NCBI GenBank assembly: GCA_030141605.1
Contig: JAQGDQ010000045.1
Coordinates: 62,001-126,000, forward strand
DNA: 64,000 nucleotides
From: Tubiluchus corallicola
Taxonomy: Eukaryota > Priapulida > Priapulimorpha > Priapulimorphida > Tubiluchidae
Reading direction: 5' to 3'
The translations under genes were made by a program, and so were the position numbers. Shown one piece after another: positions 14,810 through 49,690 of the stretch. How positions within the stretch are numbered: the first letter of the stretch is position 1; every line of letters starts with the position of its first letter. A model generated the notes under the pieces. It had not been told where the DNA came from, did no database searches, and saw nothing but the letters and a program-made list of their open reading frames with translations.

Positions 14810-16905
14810 CAATTCAATTCAATAGATTTATTTCGCAATAAACAAATACTTATGCATTACAAGTATAATGATAATCAACTTTTGTTAATTTTGTTAACAC
14901 AAAATTAGGATATAACTCATGAATGCTGCGCTAGAGACCTAAGAAGCTAGCTTATATTAGGCCACCAGAATTAGTAACGAGAAAAATAACAACATATTAC
15001 TAATGGTTAGCGTGAGGTACAGTGGGTGTTAGCAGTATTTCATAATTACGATGTAAACTGATGGTCGGTACAGAGAAATGATAAGTGTTTTAACACATTC
15101 GCTAAGCATTTGTGGAGGAGGAAACACTTGAATAGACTATATGGAGGTGTGTATTGCAGAATATATATATACGGGTGGGAACTAATAACTATATTATTAT
15201 CCTAGAGGGAAGTTTTTGAAAATAGAAAACAACAAATCATAATTGAGTGATCAGCTATATGTTTCAAGTAAGAGTAATGTACATACTTTTTTGAATATGG
15301 ACAGCGCGTTGGCATTTTTTGCAGCTGGAGCAATTGAATTCCATATGTAAGGGCCATTGTATTTAATAGAAAATTTTCTAACATTTGTGTTGCACTGTAT
15401 GTAGTGATAGTTAAGTCTATATTATGTATTGTAATTAAGTATTTCTGCATTCAAACAAAAATAATCAGTAAATAAGGGTGGCAATAATTTACGAGAGAAT
15501 TTGTAGATGGAAATGGCGGTTTGGAACTTACTAGTGTCATAAATGTTTAGAAAGTTTAGTCTTTGGTATATGTGCTCCCCAAACAATGTTTGAATTATTA
15601 AGATATGGTAAAAAAGAATTATATAATAATATAAGTACTGATTTAAGCAATATGAGTCTAACTCTGTATATAATACCTATGGCTTTGGTGATTTTACTTT
15701 CAATAGATCTAAGATGTTCTTGCCAAGTTAGGTGTTCATCTATGATGATATCTAAGAACGTAGTATGTTTTACTTTATTTATTGGGACTTCATCGATTTG
15801 TACTGTAATATTACTAAGGATTCCTTTATTTTTATTCGTGAATACAATAAATTTAGTTTTTTCAATATTCAGTGACATTTGCTTTATTTGCTTTAAACGA
15901 GGTGGTGAGGTGTGGAAGTTCTTGGTTTACAGTATTTATCATTGATTCATAGTTTGAGTGACTATAGAATGAGTTAGTATCATCGGCAAGTAAATTGAAG
16001 TCTAGCAGAGTGGAGACATTATGGAGATCATTAATATCGAGAAGAAAAAGCAATGGACCTAAGACTGAGCCTTGAGGGACACCATAATTGATTTGCTTCA
16101 AAGAAGAAAATGTGTTATGTATTAGTACGGGCTGCTTTCTGTTGAGTAAATAACTTGTAAACCACTGTAAAAGCAGACTTCTGACACTACAATTGTTTAA
16201 TTTAGCTAAGGGTATTCTATGGTCAATAGTATCAAAGGCCTTAGATAAATCAACAAAGATACCAATTGTGAATTCATTATTGTCAATTGCATTTGATATT
16301 AGATCAAGAAGTTAAAGTAGAGCCATGTAAGTGGAGTGGTTTTGTCTAAAGCCTAGTTGTTTGTTGTATAATGTTGTTTTTTTATGAAGCTTAATAGTCT
16401 ATTATACATTAGTCTTTCAAGAATTTTGGAAAAACAGGGAAGAATTGAAATGGGTCTAGAATTTTGAAACTTGGATTTATCACTAGTTTTGAAAGATTGA
16501 TTAACATTAGCTATTTTCAGAGAGTCTGGGACTATACCTGTTGAAAATGACTTGTTGAACATATAAAGTAGAGGTTCAGCAATACAGTTGGAGCTTTTAA
16601 GGATAATTTGTGATACATCATCATACCCTGTACCTTATTTTTTAAATTATTGTCACATTAAGCAGCTCCGTTTTGTCAATTGGAAGCAACTGCATTGAAT
16701 TCCTACATGCGTTTGGTAAATATGAAAAATATGACGTATTTGTAGTGGGAATTTTGTCTGCTAGAGATGAGCCTACATTTACAAAATAGTTATTAAAGCC
16801 ATCGGATATTTCTTTGACAGTTGACAAACTGTTTGCTACCCAAGTCCAGTGATGCTTAACTTCGCTGCCAACCACATCATGCCATCGTAATTTGTCGAAC
16901 GCTTT
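14810..16905 (-). mobile_element. CR1/Jockey-type non-LTR retrotransposon, 5'-truncated and decayed
   Basis: On the - strand, broken frames together read as the reverse-transcriptase half of a non-LTR element. From upstream to downstream I see a linker with FNNYFVNVG (about 16.8 kb), RPISILPC of the RT fingers (about 16.47 kb), motif A as VDLSKAFDTIDH (about 16.23 kb), GVPQGSVLGPLLF (about 16.06 kb), motif C as LLADDTN (about 15.98 kb), and a C-terminal domain near 15.33 kb. The catalytic Asp positions of motifs A and C remain, but several stops and frame changes break the frame. No endonuclease lies upstream, so the 5' end is missing. The 3' end carries a short (TTGAA)n tail at 14810-14825, typical of CR1/L2-like elements. 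It is inactive, and clade placement is inferred. Confidence 0.9.
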
Positions 16906-17973
16906 CAAAGATTGAACTGTAGAATGCAGGCAACGGCAAATTATATTAACTAGAATCCATCTACGACTTTGGGTACAAATCTACTACAAAATTTTGGACA
17001 ATATTCATCATCACTCACAAGTTCGCAGATATTAATAAAAATATTATATCAATTTAAAAATCGGGCAAAGATGGCACGCTTCAAGACTAGACAATGATAT
17101 ATTGGTAAATACCAAGTGAAGTTCATCACACACGTATTATTAGTTACTATTTAATATTTATTGAGCGATATATTTGTACGATTACATAGTACAAACGTCA
17201 CTAGTGCTACGTTAAATCATTTATCCTTTGCTGACGGCTTTTGTGTTTTTGCTACTTGTATTCCACAACTTGAATACCTGGCATTACCTGCTCAACATAA
17301 GGGAAAAATTTTGCATTCGGATACGCTGTGTGTTACAACTCTGGTAAGAGCAAATGCTTATTATTGTGCTCTAAATGGTGTTGTGCACTGTAATTCTAAA
17401 TGGTGTTGCCTTTAAGACTGTTAATGACCAGAAAAATTTATGTCATATCTTAATCAGCATATTGCACGATGATCTTAACATTAAGCATCAATGTTTTTTT
17501 ATGTGCAAGAGCCAATATTATTAGGAGGTTTAATATCTGTTGAAATTAAGAGAAGGCTTTTTGTAGCACTTTGTAATAGTAATAGTTTGTAATAGTTTCT
17601 AGTTTAATAATGATAAAGGAACTAATGAAAGAATGCATATTACCTATAATAATGCCATTAGAGGTATGTTAGCTAGAATGTACCAAGGTTTTCCAGCATA
17701 CGAAAAAAAGATGTATTTAGTCTTAGAAGTAGGCTGTTTTTGATTAAAAATATTCTTATTAATAACTTGTTTTGCAATACTGATACAATTTTTAGATCGA
17801 ACATTTTCAGGTCGTGGCACGGAATCTTATAAACCCATTTTAACTAAAATTTTCTTGTAAACAAGATTCCTATATTGTCTGTAAACTAACGCTGTGCGTT
17901 TTTACTTGTGTCTTATTTTTACTTTTGTTATATGGCCTTTAAATGTCTGAAATAATAAATAATAATTACTTTT
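16906..17973. other. no gene recognised
   Basis: An 84-codon + strand frame at 17161-17415 has no recognisable domain or splice context. The rest is AT-rich. Nothing here continues the retrotransposon upstream. Confidence 0.45.
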
Positions 17974-18165: not shown

Positions 18166-19920
18166 CTACGAAGAGGCGAAATTTAATTTTTCTATGCCTT
18201 TACTTATTTATGCACTTATGTACTGACACCTTTTATAATTATAAAGTCATATAATTATATATACCACAACCGACGCGGATATCACTTATTTGAGTGTATG
18301 ATATTATAATCTACAAAGTTATAAATTCCGTATGCTTGGGCTCAACTTTCTTCTTACTATATACTATACTTGACCTTATCAGCGACGCATAATATTAACA
18401 TGAACTTCCTTTCGCAATCTTAATTAAGTTCACATTCTACGTCCGTCTGTACCAGATGTGCGAACGAATTTAAACTGACATTGTAACTACAGTAATGGGC
18501 TAATAACAGGTAGGCCCACACTATAGACGTGGACAGTTTCTAAACAAAATATTTCAAATTTTACAATAATATGCCGAGAAACTGCCCTATTCCATCTATT
18601 CCATTTCTCTATTCCATCTTTTATTTTCTATCATTTTTATCTTATCTATTTAGAGGTAACTACAGCATCGAACTTGCGTATGTACTGTTCATGAAAGCAA
18701 CAACAACAGAAGTGAAATTAAAATTAGATCACACTACATGTGATGTGAAACAGCATTTCGCTTTTGTGACTGAATTAGTAAAATTCGGCAAATGCTCTTA
18801 TAAGATTCATATCTACATATTTCAGTTAACTCATGGTTCGGTATAGCCAGTTGCTTATATATATATGAACAGATTATTGTTGAAAGTACGTATTTTTGAA
18901 CAAGATACACAAAGGAACTTTTGATTGTGACCGAAGATCAGTTCATTTTAAAGCCTGTTTTTAATTTTTGAAAGCCTTCAATAAAATTTTTATGCAACTT
19001 TTATACAATTAGTGCAGTAAAAAGTTTTATTTCTAACTCAAAGAAATAAAGATTCATTGAAATAGTTTTATCTTCTCATTGTTGCTTACATGTGAACAGA
19101 CGATTGTATCGCAGGGAAACAAAAAAGCTACACTGTTGATACGATATATCATGTGAACAAACTCTAAGCTATTGAAATGTTGAAGCTTCTGTCAAAACAA
19201 TGCAGGCACAAAAAAAACAATATAAATGGCTGAACAGCAATTTCTATAACAGGTCAGACGCAAACGACATTTACATATTGACCACGAGCTCCAAATAATA
19301 CATTGAAAGAAACATCTTACTCAGATTGATCTTTCAGCCAATTATGCTAAAGTTTGCAACAGCAGTGAGAAGGAAACGTGTTGCTGCATGCTACTGCCCG
19401 TCAATTTTTGAAGCCACACACGCTAGGCACAGACAGCGTGACGGGGATAAGCTGAAGCCAGCTGCAGGTAGTTTACCTTCTTACCGATTACAGCTCCTTA
19501 TGTTGCGGTGCAGTACCACGAAGGATGATAAAACTTGCAAAACAACCAGAAAACGTGATGTAATCACGGAATTAATTTTATGTGATACTGTAAACTCTTG
19601 TACCTTTAAATGCCAGTATGGATCAATGAGAATTTCATAAAATGCTTAGCAATTACGTTGATAAGGGATGCGATAAATCTCAGTGATACAGCAAGAGACA
19701 TGTTGCTATCACTGATTGTACAAGCTACAAACATGATGTGAGTTGACATGAATGCAGAATACTTTCATTGAGCAACTTTAGTTTTTAGCCAGTTAACATA
19801 TTAAGTGCATTTGTATACTGTCACTCTGTCACATAATTACAAAATTCTTCTTTGATAAACAGCGCAAAAGTATACACCACACCCGTAGCCAAACCTTACG
19901 TACATATGTACAAACCTTAC
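18166..19920. other. no gene recognised
   Basis: A 104-codon + strand frame (19326-19640) is rich in Cys, Arg and Thr but resembles nothing I know and lacks splice context. The rest is plain AT-rich sequence. Confidence 0.4.
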
Positions 19921-20165
19921 GGTTATTTGGAGCCATAGGTCATTCAGACGCTAGGTGTTCTGGACACATACGTCATTTGGATACGAGGTAGATTGGACAC
20001 ACACATTAGTAGAACACATAAGCAGTTGAGACACTAGGTGTTTTGAGCACATGTGGCATTTGAACACATTAAGACAAACTCATTTATCTTACACAATTTT
20101 AGACAAGTAAGTCTTTTACGTACAGGTTATTAGGACAAGTAAGTAATTCAAGCATACATATGCCA
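19921..20165 (+). repeat. left minisatellite arm (GGACACATAGGTCATTT-type unit)
   Basis: At least eight diverged copies lie in 19921-20070, for example TGGACACATACGTCATTTGG near 19961. Weaker traces (AGGACAAGTAAG) run to about 20165. Copies differ at many positions, so the array is old. Confidence 0.7.
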
Positions 20166-20451
20166 TTTACATTAACGTATTTAGATATATTATTATTGCA
20201 GATTAAGGTGTTTATGTATTAATTACGATAAAACGACGAACATTGGGACTTTTCCTAGAAGATTTTTCTTTACAAGTAATTATTAAAATGGGCAATAAGA
20301 AATTTCTTAAGTACATACAGTTTGTCATGTGAAAAGAATTTACCTTACTAACCGCTTCCGTGAACTGGTCAATCCGCAATCATCAATCGATTATAATACA
20401 GTAAACCACTCATTTCGATATTTCTGGAATGAATGCCCTCATATCACTTAA

Positions 20452-20685
20452 GTGTGCGTGAAAGGATCAAAGTCAGGCAACACTTGTCGTAACTCTAGCA
20501 CTGTTTTACAGGTTATGTTGCTTTGTAATTCTTATGGAGTAAATAGTTTCAGTGAACGAAGAAGCTTCAGTGCTTTATTGTTCAAATTATTAAACATAGT
20601 CAGCCATGACATGACTACATTCAGTAGAAATGTGAATCCGGCAAAAAATTGCACAGATTTAGTTAAACATTTAGTTAAAAAATAA
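20452..20685 (+). other. 77-codon open frame in the foldback spacer, probably chance
   Basis: This frame lies between the two inverted arms. It shows no transposase motif and no recognisable domain. A - strand frame of 64 codons overlaps it. The spacer therefore does not encode a visible mobility protein, and the element would be non-autonomous. Confidence 0.15.
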
Positions 20686-20737
20686 AATAGCATTAAGGTA
20701 TCTCCAATGAGAATTTCCAATAGCAAAAAATGAGCTA

Positions 20738-21027
20738 CGCATGTCTAAATGCCTACTTTAGAAGTGTCCAATTTTTGTGCAAAATGCGTATGTGTCCAAA
20801 TGACTATGTGTCGAAATCGTCGTGTGCTAAAAATGACTTGTGTCCAAATAGCCTTGTGGCCTAAATTACCTACGTGTCCAAATATCTTGTATCCAAAGGG
20901 TGCCTATGTGTCCAAAGGAATCTATGTTTAAATTACCTATGTGTTTAAATGACCTATGCGGTCAAAATGCCTTGTGTGCAAATTACCTATGCGTCCAAGA
21001 GCAAATTATCTTGTGTCCAAAAGTTAG
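20738..21027 (-). repeat. right minisatellite arm, inverse of the left arm
   Basis: About fourteen diverged units of TATGTGTCCAAATGACC type run from about 20738 to 21027. Clear copies lie at 20789-20804, 20872-20884 and 20905-20918. The arm is longer and better kept than the left one. Confidence 0.75.
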
Positions 21028-21120
21028 GTGGCGACGCATCCCGTGTCACAATGTCTGTGTTGAAATGTCTGCACACCATTTTTTAAAAATATTAGTAACG
21101 TATTTTCAAGGCAATGAGAG

Positions 21121-21284
21121 CTTTAGACAACAGGTGAACCTCTTAAATAATAAAAACAATAGACAAGCTAACTTTGGATAGCAGGTGACTTCTTAAATAA
21201 TAAAAATAATGGGCAAAGTGCTTTGGATAACAGGTGACCTCTTAAATAATAAAAACAATGGACAAACTAGCTTCGGAGAAACTG
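21121..21284. repeat. tandem repeat, about 50 bp x 3.3
   Basis: Units start at 21121, 21172, 21221 and 21271 (51, 49 and 50 bp, then a partial). All contain CTTAAATAATAAAAA and CAGGTGA. The array starts about 90 bp beyond the foldback right arm, and no 17-bp unit is visible in it. Confidence 0.9.
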
Positions 21285-33581: not shown

Positions 33582-36426
33582 CTGTAAGAAAAAGATGATG
33601 TTACACTGAAAATTTCTTTTGAAAAAATTAGTAAAAATACCGTTTTATCATTTGTTTAATATGCACTCAAAAATGTGAAAATTTTCTGAGCGTTTTTATA
33701 TGAAAGGTGTGGAAATGGAAATTTGTGTACACATAACACTAAGTTCAAGCAGGAAAACCACAAGAATGGCAGAACTTTAACAAACAAAATACTTAAAAAA
33801 TAAGAAGGTTACCTTGCTCTAATTCTAATAAAAGATGATCTTATCTTATTAGTGTCAAATGAGTTAAGGGCCAGATCGGCATGAAGACGTGCCGTGATCA
33901 GATTTATGTTTGGGATGGGACTGTTTTAATGGGGAAATTAAGGCTCCCATACACTAGCACCTTACAGTTCAAAAGACAAGAGAATGCTGATTTCTTTCTG
34001 TTCAAGACTATCAGTTCTAATATGTTATTGTTAGTTTCTTGATGTGTTAGAAAAAACAATCCACTATACGGAGATATAAATACTGACTTTGTAAGGAATG
34101 TTTTTGACACAAAGCTTTCTAGATTGACTATTAAAATATATTGAAGTCGGAGTCAGTATTTTGAATGCTCCTAGAATGGGAAGTGTTGTCGGCAAATTTT
34201 TGATATCACTCCATATTTCTGCACCTAAGCGTTAACGAGTAGCCTTTTTAATGTACATAAAGAAGAGCACTAGTATTTCACATCTCTCGTGTTAATGGAA
34301 TTACTTTTCTCTATGTCGGCGGTATCTGATACCTCACATCAAAGTAATAAGTTTCCTATATGTTGAACGTGCCAGTTATTTAATTCTTAGCCAGAAATTA
34401 CTTAGCTTGATGATCCGTCTCACCTAAATAAGCACAGGAGAAACTGGAAGCCCTTCCTTGCAGCAATGTCGTCCATTCTTACCTGTAATTAACAAAAGTA
34501 CTAAGTTAACGGCGTGAAGTTACAGGTTTTCATATGGATATGTATTTTCTTTCATGATTAGTTTTTTATTTAAAAAACAGCAAATTTTTTACATGGCATG
34601 GTCTTGTAGGCACTGTGAAACTTTTAGAGTGTCTATGTTGTGAGACATCTAAATATTCATCTGCCTATTCCGTGTAAATGTATGCGTGACCTTTGCGATT
34701 TGAAGCAACTACATGATGGTATTTCACCTGCCATATTGCTTCTGGTACTTTATCTCATCGAGGAAGGAAGTCTATGCATCAGAGCGTGCCCGAGACATTT
34801 CTGCTGGTTCAATGGGTCTTACAGAGTTAACCCACTTGCCTCAATCTATTGAACATAATAAACCTTTGCCAAATTTAATGGTTACTGTTTCTAGACTCGA
34901 GACTTTTTGGTAAATCACTTCTATTGAATAATCACTTCTATTGACATACATACAACGAAACATCCAAAGGTAGAAAAGACTTTCAGAAAATATCAGCCAA
35001 CATTTCTGAGGCTGTACCGCTTAAGTGAAAATTAGCTTTGGCTCTGAGGTCGCGACCTCCATGACGACATTTAGACGCATGTGTAAAATCAGTGTGCAGA
35101 AGATCGTGAATACTGATTTTGAAATATGTCTGCACCTCTTCTGTACTGCATGTCCAGCTAACTATAAATTCGAAAGCAGCGAAATTCAGTGCACATGTTA
35201 GCTTCTTGCGGCAGAGCTTAAAATGAAAGCCGAGGTATGGCTATGCCGCGTTTGTTCGTATCAGAAAATAATAATAATACCATTGGATCATATTAAGAAG
35301 CTATTCTAATAATAATTATCCACATAGGACCAGTTCAATGACTCAGGATCGAAGTTGGCGAAGAGAAATTTGCTCAGACCAATCGATAAAGGCAAGCTGG
35401 GTCAGTTGCCTCTGTGCGTACAATATTATACCAGCGGCTATGAAGCCTAACAACCTGATATTAATAGCTCGCTTGCAGAAGTGTATTGTTTGCATTGGTC
35501 AAGCTGGCAGGCAATACAGCTCACGGCTTCGGCTGATCAATGAAGCTTGGACGCTGGGCTGCTGCTGCAGTAGCAGTCTACTGCAAACTACTACGACCTA
35601 TTTAGCTTAACATCAAATGAAACTGCCCGTGAATCGATCAATCAGTATGGCCAAGCAAATAGTTTTTGTACACGTCCGCCATTCAAAGCTGCATTCAAAA
35701 TTGAACAATTTCATTTTGATATTTTCTAACAATTAAGCTACATAAACGATAACTAGCATTTTAGCTTGGCATGCCAGGGATAATAAAAGAAATGGAATCA
35801 TGCAAGGAAACGTTTTGGGACCCTTAATAAACCTGGGTAACATAAGCAGGGCTGTATGTAGTAACTAACCTAGCATTTGCAAACTGCATCTGTAGTACTT
35901 TTCTATTTACACACATTTACTATCAACTAAGCCAGTTTAACGCTTTAATACCTTAAACAAATATAGACGAGTATTTCGCTATGAAATTAACTCACGCAGA
36001 TATATAGCGTTTTTGTGCTTGTTAAGTTGTGTTAGTACACCGCAGAATGGCTTTGTCCATTCTGAAGTGTATGCTACAGCGCCCTCTATCGTTAAATGAG
36101 TGAAACAAAAATTTACTACCCCTAGAACTTCACGAAAGCAAATTTTCGTTCTGTAAACGGTTAACTTTACAGTTTTAAATCGTGTGAATTTACCAGCTAG
36201 CTATAGGAAAGCTGCATAAATTATTATAGACCAGACGAACATAAAAGTCAGCGGTATATATAACCAGTTGCTAGCAAGATGCCAGATTACACTGCCTGCT
36301 GCTGCTTGAGATTCCTACACACTGATTCATCTTCCTGCCCACCCACACTAGCTATCATAGGGTAATCATGCATGAGAATAGGCCTGTGAGACTTAACCCG
36401 CATTGAACGAAGATGCATCCTAAAAT
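33582..36426. other. no confirmed gene; broken CH-like frames near 34.7 kb
   Basis: Two overlapping + strand frames (34640-34852 and 34713-34913) vaguely recall a CAMSAP-type calponin-homology domain split by a frame change. A 90-codon + frame lies at 35338-35610. A CTCF-like word in reverse orientation lies at 36076-36090. None of these is firm. Confidence 0.35.
36076..36090 (-). promoter_or_regulatory. CTCF-like motif, reverse
   Basis: Read on the - strand the bases are ATAGAGGGCGCTGTA, one base off the CYAGRKGGC core. They match 12 of 13 bases of the forward word at 26185-26197. The two words point towards each other over about 10 kb. Confidence 0.2.
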
Positions 36427-36829
36427 GCTCTACGCTACGGACGTGCTCACATTTATGCCGCCATGTGTACACACACAGTGACAGCAATCCACCAATGTGA
36501 AAGTCAACTTAAATCACAAGCTAGAAGTGCATTAATAACAATACGAACTGATAAGGCAAACCACACTGTTCTACAGACAATGGCAATGATACAATCCAAC
36601 TATCCTGTAAACAGCTGGCTGTATTGATGCTCTGTGCTATGGGCGTGCTCACATTTATGCCGCCATGTATACACATACAGTGACAGCAATCCACCAATGT
36701 GAAAGTCAACTTAAATCACAAGCTAGGAGTGCTTTAATAACAATACGAACTGATAAGGCAAAACACACTGTTCTACAGACAATGGCAATGATACAATCCA
36801 ATTATCCTGTAAACAGCAGGCTGTACTGA
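36427..36829. repeat. tandem duplication, about 202 bp x 2
   Basis: The first copy starts near 36427 and the second near 36629. Shared landmarks such as CGTGCTCACATTTATGCCGC (36442 and 36644) are spaced 202 bases apart. The copies are about 93-95% identical by eye, so the duplication is fairly recent. Open frames on the - strand differ between copies, and no coding use is evident. Confidence 0.9.
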
Positions 36830-47889: not shown

Positions 47890-49690
47890 AACTATGTTTG
47901 TAGATTGTACAGGCTGTAACACAAGGAGGGACAACCATAACGATATAATTTATTGCAACAGTTGTATTGCTGAGTCAATGGAGAATCTGTCATGCCCGCA
48001 AATATATAATGTGCAAGCCACGTGTAAGAGTCAAGGTAAAGATCAGACCAGATTGAACTCAATGATTTGGAATTCAGAGCATCAAAGCTATCTGCGTGTC
48101 AGAGCTTCCCAAAAGAGCTTCTCCATCAATTTTCAAAAGAAAAGCTTTTGAAACATCTGCAAGTTGTGTTGAAGGATCTAGAATTCAACTCTTATCTCTT
48201 CAAGTATGCAATACTGGTCTTCTAGATTGTAGCTTGTGCTTGTACACTAAAATTACGTGCATATGATATAACAAACCCAACACACAAGTCGAATGATTCA
48301 AATCATCCATTAAATTACAGAGGGATTGCTCTGCTGTGTACAAATTGCTCTGTAACATTCTTAATAAGCAGCTTTCTACCTGGGCCAGAGGGAGAGAGAG
48401 AGAGCCTTATAGCTGATGAACAAAATGAATTTAGAAAAGACAGATGTTGTTCCGCCAACATTTCCAGCCTTGTTACAATTGTAGATACTTGGACAAAAAA
48501 TTGAGAAAACCAACTTAGTATACTTTAACATACAAGTTAAAAATAGTAAACCAGTATAAGTACTTGGGTATCACTCTTACCAAAGTTTTAAATTTTACTG
48601 TAACTACAAAAGAAGTATCTTGTCACGCAAATAGAGCACTTGGCGCAATAATTACGAAGTCTGAATGTTTTGGTGAATTACCATTTAGCACTTACACTAA
48701 ACTATTTGATTCTGTTATTGTGCAAATCTTTATGTACGGGACTGCCGTTTGGGATTATTGTAGTTGTTCCCATATTAATGCTTTTTTAATCGTGCATGCA
48801 GTTTTTATACAGGTGTAGCAGACTTAGCTGCAAGTTTTTATTAATCTTCTTATAAAATTCTTATGTACGGGCCTCCATCTGTAGCAGTAATGTAAACATT
48901 TTAGTTTCAAGCTAGCTTTCAGGCAGTTACCTGTCAGTCACAGTCATTTGTCTCTTTACTTGGGCTGTAAACAGATAAGTTGATCCACATTTCTGTGCTG
49001 ATTTTTGGTGCACGTGTTTCAGTGGTATTCACTTCTGTTGGAAACGTTTCTGTCATTATAATGGGGTTGGGAAGTATACATCAAATGCAGTTTTGCATGA
49101 AGGGTTCGATTACCATGTGGCAACGTCAATAGTTTTCAGTACAAGACTTTGGTGTTGAATTTTTATGATGAATTGGACAGATTGTGCTAACGTATTTTCT
49201 TGTGGGGTAATGTAGAGAACAATAAGAAAAACTGGATCTTCAATATTTTGTCATGTTTCAAGGATATTGAAATGTCATATTTACGTAATAATAAGTATGC
49301 ATTTGGTATAGAAAAAAGAGCAAAGCTGGTATCAAAAAGTTAACCGGATGTACACACGTAGAGTTCCTAAGAAGTGTCAAGTATATTGATCAAAATCAAG
49401 TGAATTAGTTAATTTAGATGTGGCGTTGCTTCCATATTATGTTAGAAATAGGAAAGTACACCAATACCATCAAATATTGTGCCATTTTTGTGACCAATTA
49501 GCAGTCAAGTTCGAAAAACGTGTTTTATTGCTTGCCCTCTTTATGATGATATTCATACTTTGTTATTCTAGTGCCCAAGTGCAGAAATCAATCATTTTAG
49601 TCAGTTCAACGGTAACAATAAATTATGTCAAATACTATCAATGTGACATTTGTGTTGTGCCGAAGTGTACCATCTAATGTTGGACAGAAT
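47890..49690 (+). mobile_element. non-LTR retrotransposon remnant lacking the RT palm
   Basis: Broken + strand frames resemble an I/Nimb-like non-LTR ORF2. I see PLNYRGIALL (RT fingers, about 48.31 kb), ADEQNEFRKDR (about 48.41 kb), YKYLGITL followed by PFSTYTKLFDS and YGTAVW (thumb and connection, 48.55-48.76 kb), and a C-terminal stretch LLPYYVRNRKVHQYHQILCH followed by FC (about 49.43 kb) that recalls the terminal Cys-rich motif. Only about 80 bases separate the finger and thumb parts where several hundred are expected, so the palm with its catalytic Asp pair has been deleted. Several stops follow. It ends about 550 bp before the SSR1 start codon. Clade naming is inferred. Confidence 0.75.

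Follow-up and report, generated by a model that had tools for sequence, protein, structure and literature searches.

The window, that is, the whole stretch of 64,000 nucleotides of Tubiluchus corallicola DNA that was analysed, carries two arrays of one short tandem unit placed on either side of a non-coding spacer (Table 1). Cores within 2 mismatches of TGTGTCCAAA number six in the left arm, exclusively on the minus strand, and 14 in the right arm, exclusively on the plus strand, which bears out an earlier sequence-only reading of the locus as two arrays facing each other. A chance origin of these arrays was ruled out by comparing the core counts with the rest of the window (0.8 such cores per kb) and by the unit-pair pattern, which occurs 207 times in the genome compared with one occurrence of its reversed control. 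The tandem unit proposed in that reading is real, but instead of a fixed length of 17 bp it has a spacing of 15-17 bp. The arms do differ in length and wear as had been noticed, the left one fading out towards about 20195, and TRF detected the right array and missed the more worn left one. The inverted-repeat search that had been recommended gave arm-to-arm inverted pairs with 70-92% complementarity in the window copy. Taken as single strands, its arms interact at -44.6 kcal/mol versus -22.1 kcal/mol for shuffles (z=-5.0), and the pairing is lost when one arm is flipped.

Table 1. Parts of the foldback-type copy in the window
Feature	Position	Strand	Description and support
Left arm	19921..20069	-	About 9 degenerate units of 15-17 bp; core TGTGTCCAAA on the minus strand, i.e. 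TTTGGACACA on the plus strand; similar inverted arm at genome loci L004, L005, L006, L012 and L015
Inner left arm, strongly degenerate	20070..20195	.	Kept in other copies; 70-80% matches to L006, L009, L015, L023 and L030; units at 3-4 mismatches
Spacer (non-coding element interior)	20196..20762	+	65-85% identity at dozens of genome loci
Right arm	20763..21065	+	About 18 units, 14 of which differ from TGTGTCCAAA at 2 positions or fewer; conserved together with the spacer elsewhere
Right end, conserved	21012..21077	+	Ends in ...GTCTGTGTTGAAATGTCTGCACACC; 89% identity to the 68-nt right-end consensus

The limits of the element had to be moved. Its right border was formerly placed at 21027, but the element runs about 50 bp further, to 21077, where its homology to other copies ends. 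On the left, the end of the window copy was looked for and not found, therefore no target duplication can be shown for this particular copy. The 570 bp between the arrays, described previously as unrelated DNA, indeed form a spacer; it is, however, a conserved part of the element and recurs with the arms elsewhere. In the window copy the spacer is without about 360 bp of the left interior and without a piece near 20355-20362, both of which are present in other copies.

Other features of the window and of the assembly were recorded as well. An unrelated minisatellite (49 bp x 3.2) at 21119-21277 begins 42 bp beyond the right end of the element. The minus strand at 15540-16980 carries a broken non-LTR retrotransposon, of which a 149-aa piece matches the RVT_1 reverse transcriptase (E 1.7e-13), and a second possible non-LTR remnant lies on the plus strand at 48226-48815; the piece of it that was tested matched nothing in Pfam. 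A unit of 202 bp is tandemly duplicated at 36425-36829, its two copies being 94% alike. Locus L094 on contig C1597, the fourth of the transposase loci examined, has a RecJ-like gene beside two near-identical IS256-type transposase frames; this contig looks bacterial, so the assembly carries contamination.

The foldback family occupies well over 100 distinct dispersed places in the 343.5 Mb genome (2344 contigs searched). A search with window positions 19900-21060 gave 83 matches, and in many loci the spacer and the right arm match jointly and in the same order, with inverted left arms at the expected place. Searches in which the best 40 of 67-144 candidates were scored gave at least 40 genome matches for the right-end consensus, at least 52 for the left end and at least 55 for the interior consensus, the last of these from 144 first-look candidates. 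When neighbouring arrays less than 3 kb apart were compared among 68 merged regions, 27 of the 32 adjacent pairs were oriented '<>' as in the window, five pointed the same way and none was '><'. Single arrays with no partner found are also present in the genome. The copy search and alignment for ends and duplications suggested by the sequence-only reading thus yielded many copies, defined ends and 8-bp duplications. Since spacer, arms and outer ends recur together, the genome does not present the picture named there as contrary to a foldback element, namely arrays in a single orientation or the lack of a second copy. A minisatellite confined to a single locus was likewise rejected, as interior and ends recur at other loci.

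The spacer consensus comprises 639 bp built from 24 copies, and fuller copies add 362 bp on its left. The resulting interior consensus of about 1 kb contains no ORF longer than 60 aa in any frame, in agreement with the former remark that the spacer has no transposase. A 27-bp inverted pair (89%, around GCGGATATCCGCATGCGGTGACGG) lies within the interior consensus at positions of about 198-224 and 555-581, which suggests that an older small element was captured there. Copies diverge from the consensus with a median K of 0.18, the window copy having K=0.17; the family is old and the sample gives no sign of recent movement.

The ends of the family are fixed but unequal: the left one begins with GGTTACAGGGGTTTTGGACACA... 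and the right one finishes with ...GTGTCGAAATGTCTGCACACC, after which alignments outside the right arm break off sharply at CACACC. The end motifs are GGTTACAG and CACACC. Read inward, the left end GGTTACAGGGGTTTTGGACACA stands against GGTGTGCAGACATTTCGACACA on the complement of the right end; the outermost 22-75 bp differ between the two ends and the unit is the sole sequence that they share. In many copies the left end GGTTACAGGGGTTTTGGACACA carries one extra unit, and often one base is extra or missing. At loci L062, L063, L067, L070 and L073 the foldback left end sits inside another repeat of more than 1 kb that is followed by a satellite of about 22-bp periodicity; these repeat copies are 77-87% alike, and contig C2191 holds two of them at a distance of 3.4 kb. 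The larger repeat beyond the left ends on C2191, C1711, C1935 and C969 was set aside as another repeat, whose satellite contains the end.

Target duplications were assessed in 14 copies with both ends by comparing the 8 bases that precede the left end, shifted by one base, with the 8 bases that follow the right end. The mean match was 3.79 of 8 versus 2.31 for mismatched pairs, with a permutation p=1.5e-4 to which a factor of about 20 should be applied, because the register was picked after the flanks had been seen and about 20 registers were tried. With offsets 0-2 allowed, the observed sum was reached in 0 of 20000 permutations. The 8-bp duplication is evident in only about half of these 14 pairs of ends: two match at 8/8 (TTGTTTGA and GTAAATAT), three at 6/8, two at 5/8 and seven at 3/8 or less. 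Copy C2:828076, which lies outside the test set, has CATGAAAA/TATGAAAA in this register, provided that a small internal deletion is assumed in its right end.

The repeat unit consists of a conserved 10-bp core, TGTGTCCAAA, and a variable linker of 5-7 bp, and its spacing peaks at 15, 16 and 17 bp (148, 202 and 277 cases, respectively). Conservation was scored in one half of the core with the other half as anchor, which avoids bias: TGTGT is 78-85% conserved beside CCAAA, CCAAA is 67-88% conserved beside TGTGT, and most linker positions are 31-73% conserved. Values for the core come near the identity of spacer copies to their own consensus, which is mostly 80-87%, hence the source elements, when active, carried a nearly fixed core. 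Its variation roughly equals decay after insertion, and the linker was variable already in the source elements. On sequence grounds, this pattern probably reflects repeated protein-binding sites, which are predicted to be sites of the transposase. A precedent is Galileo, in which the tandem repeats of the arms bind the THAP domain of the transposase (PMC3688188); the role of the repeats in Foldback and Phantom elements is called untested in the same paper.

Fixed unequal ends, an interior devoid of ORFs longer than 60 aa and 8-bp duplications together indicate a non-autonomous DNA transposon of foldback architecture. The window copy is very probably a decayed member of this family whose arm arrays would be bound by a transposase. 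A transposase encoded elsewhere would bind the repeated 10-bp core in both arms and bring the two ends of the element together, and the element would then be joined into a new site by an 8-bp staggered cut. The arms may accordingly be seen as arrays of secondary binding sites, an arrangement that would keep the core conserved, leave the linker free to vary and allow the number of units per arm to drift. Amplification appears to be long over, and the window copy, with its left end lost, would be immobile. As no transposase with the family ends was found, movement in trans is something that we infer; dispersal, fixed unequal ends, opposed arrays, a shared non-coding interior, 8-bp duplications and conservation of the core are observed.

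Two other accounts of the arms were weighed against binding-site arrays. The arms might work mainly by folding, with a hairpin (cruciform or dsRNA) driving amplification or silencing instead of site-specific protein binding, and single-strand pairing between the arms of seven copies does exceed that of shuffles by 5-11 sd, in the facing orientation only. Pairing needs both core and linker, whereas the two are unequally conserved; arm length and unit number differ within one copy, and fixed ends with target duplications indicate a transposase, so that a primary role of folding is improbable. The pairing is a consequence of the element plan and may have relevance to silencing or recombination. 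The other account, in which template switching or recombination, and not transposition, dispersed and inverted a minisatellite, draws on the short and variable tandem unit and on the partnerless arrays mentioned above. The common spacer and ends already refute it for the most part: the same interior, ends and arm order recur in dozens of places; moreover, none of the 32 adjacent pairs faces inward and 8-bp duplications are present, which makes such an origin extremely improbable.

Within the preferred reading of a non-autonomous transposon, the origin of the transposase is a separate matter. Genome matches to transposases comprise 7 for MULE, 7 for Merlin, 26 for P and 115 for hAT, and among the matches listed, one P element on contig C2301 is the only one situated less than about 3 kb from a listed array. 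Foldback loci inspected for an autonomous partner contained unrelated ORFs only. For Merlin (DDE_Tnp_IS1595), the one locus examined of the 7 matches was without arms and without matching ends. Assignment to hAT through the CAGGGG motif was ruled out, because a conserved GGTTA stands between CAGGGG and the 8-bp duplication, which consequently does not abut a CAG-type end directly. The duplication length falls in the 8-11 bp range of Mutator, yet it is not specific to Mutator, being compatible with P and other groups too; by analogy with Tm1, Mutator would be the likeliest of the superfamilies.

That the family belongs to the Mutator (MULE) superfamily, like Tm1, Phantom and FB-NOF, and was moved by a MULE transposase has a probability somewhat below even. 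Duplications of 8 bp agree with the MULE range (PMC6446971), Tm1 shares the plan including asymmetric end motifs (PMC3169594) and MULE genes are present in the genome, but in the one animal-like MULE locus examined (L093) neither unit arrays nor matching ends occur within 2.6 kb, and none of five further MULE matches is near a listed array. Membership in the P superfamily, where Galileo shows that foldback arms can evolve (PMC3573991), is rather unlikely. Numerous P matches in the genome have intact frames. P elements make 8-bp target duplications, the length found here. Against this, the one P match examined, an intact element at L091, possesses unrelated ends and no unit arrays. This element (L091 599-3910, contig C2301) is apparently complete, with an 881-aa frame containing THAP and TNP-like RNase H domains and with 65-bp ends that are 91% alike and start near CAAGGACTACTATA; it lies 1.6 kb from a foldback copy, and many other P-type frames in the genome are open too. 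It is unlikely that this family, with its unequal ends and arms of nearly fixed 10-bp sites, was moved by a transposase outside Mutator and P, the groups known to drive foldback elements; if it were, the arrays would let many transposase molecules load per end, in place of a precise terminal inverted repeat.

Structurally, the family shows what characterises foldback (FB/TU-like) elements: its inverted arms consist of short tandem repeats and enclose an unrelated middle, and its copies are scattered, with defined ends and with target duplications. Long inverted repeats that match up to the tip, typical of FB and TU proper, are absent; the proposed foldback identity is supported by architecture, copies, defined ends and 8-bp duplications, with the caveat that the two ends are not identical long inverted repeats. 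In the arms of the sea urchin TU, an outer domain consists of tandem repeats of about 15 bp; the element makes 8-bp target duplications, and its ends are matching inverted repeats. TU would thus resemble the present family in its short-repeat arms and 8-bp duplications and differ from it in its matching ends. Drosophila FB likewise has inverted arms of short tandem repeats and a variable middle, but here the ends are unequal and no NOF/MULE protein was found with the family.

The closest described system is Tm1 of root-knot nematodes (Mutator/Foldback), followed by TU, FB, Tetris and Galileo. Tm1 also has inverted arms of variable length made of a short tandem motif (14 bp versus 15-17 bp here) with one conserved and one variable side, short end motifs beyond the repeats that differ between the two tips, and copies that are mostly non-coding, old and inactive; it differs in its 9-bp target duplications versus 8 bp, in arms that average 93% identity within a copy, the present family being much more worn, and in one copy with a MULE (Phantom) transposase, of which none was found here (PMC3169594). 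The unit sequence of Tm1 is unrelated. Tetris of Drosophila virilis is a non-autonomous foldback element with arm tandem repeats, 8-10 bp duplications and a partner not found, but its unit is about 220 bp and its flanking domains are long and matching (PMC4079207). Galileo of Drosophila has repeats inside its arms that act as secondary transposase-binding sites, a role which here is predicted; unlike the present family it uses a P transposase and has 7-bp flanking duplications and long matching inverted repeats, and one of its subfamilies has tandem units of about 210 bp (PMC3573991, PMC3688188). The opinion that such elements are poorly described outside flies and sea urchins did not hold, as foldback-like elements are known from root-knot nematodes (PMC3169594) and are listed for rye, Arabidopsis and Chironomus (PMC4079207). 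The family is classed as foldback-type by its structure and not as FB or TU by descent; the family is new and the foldback kind already known.

Different transposases have given rise to foldback elements on several occasions, and the cause of the growth of tandem repeats in their arms is still debated. The present analysis contributes a foldback family that has many copies and unequal ends and is otherwise an ordinary extinct repeat. With more than 100 copies and about 1000 units, it constitutes a large natural sample that allows core and linker to be told apart by statistics, and it supports the reading of foldback arms as arrays of binding sites.
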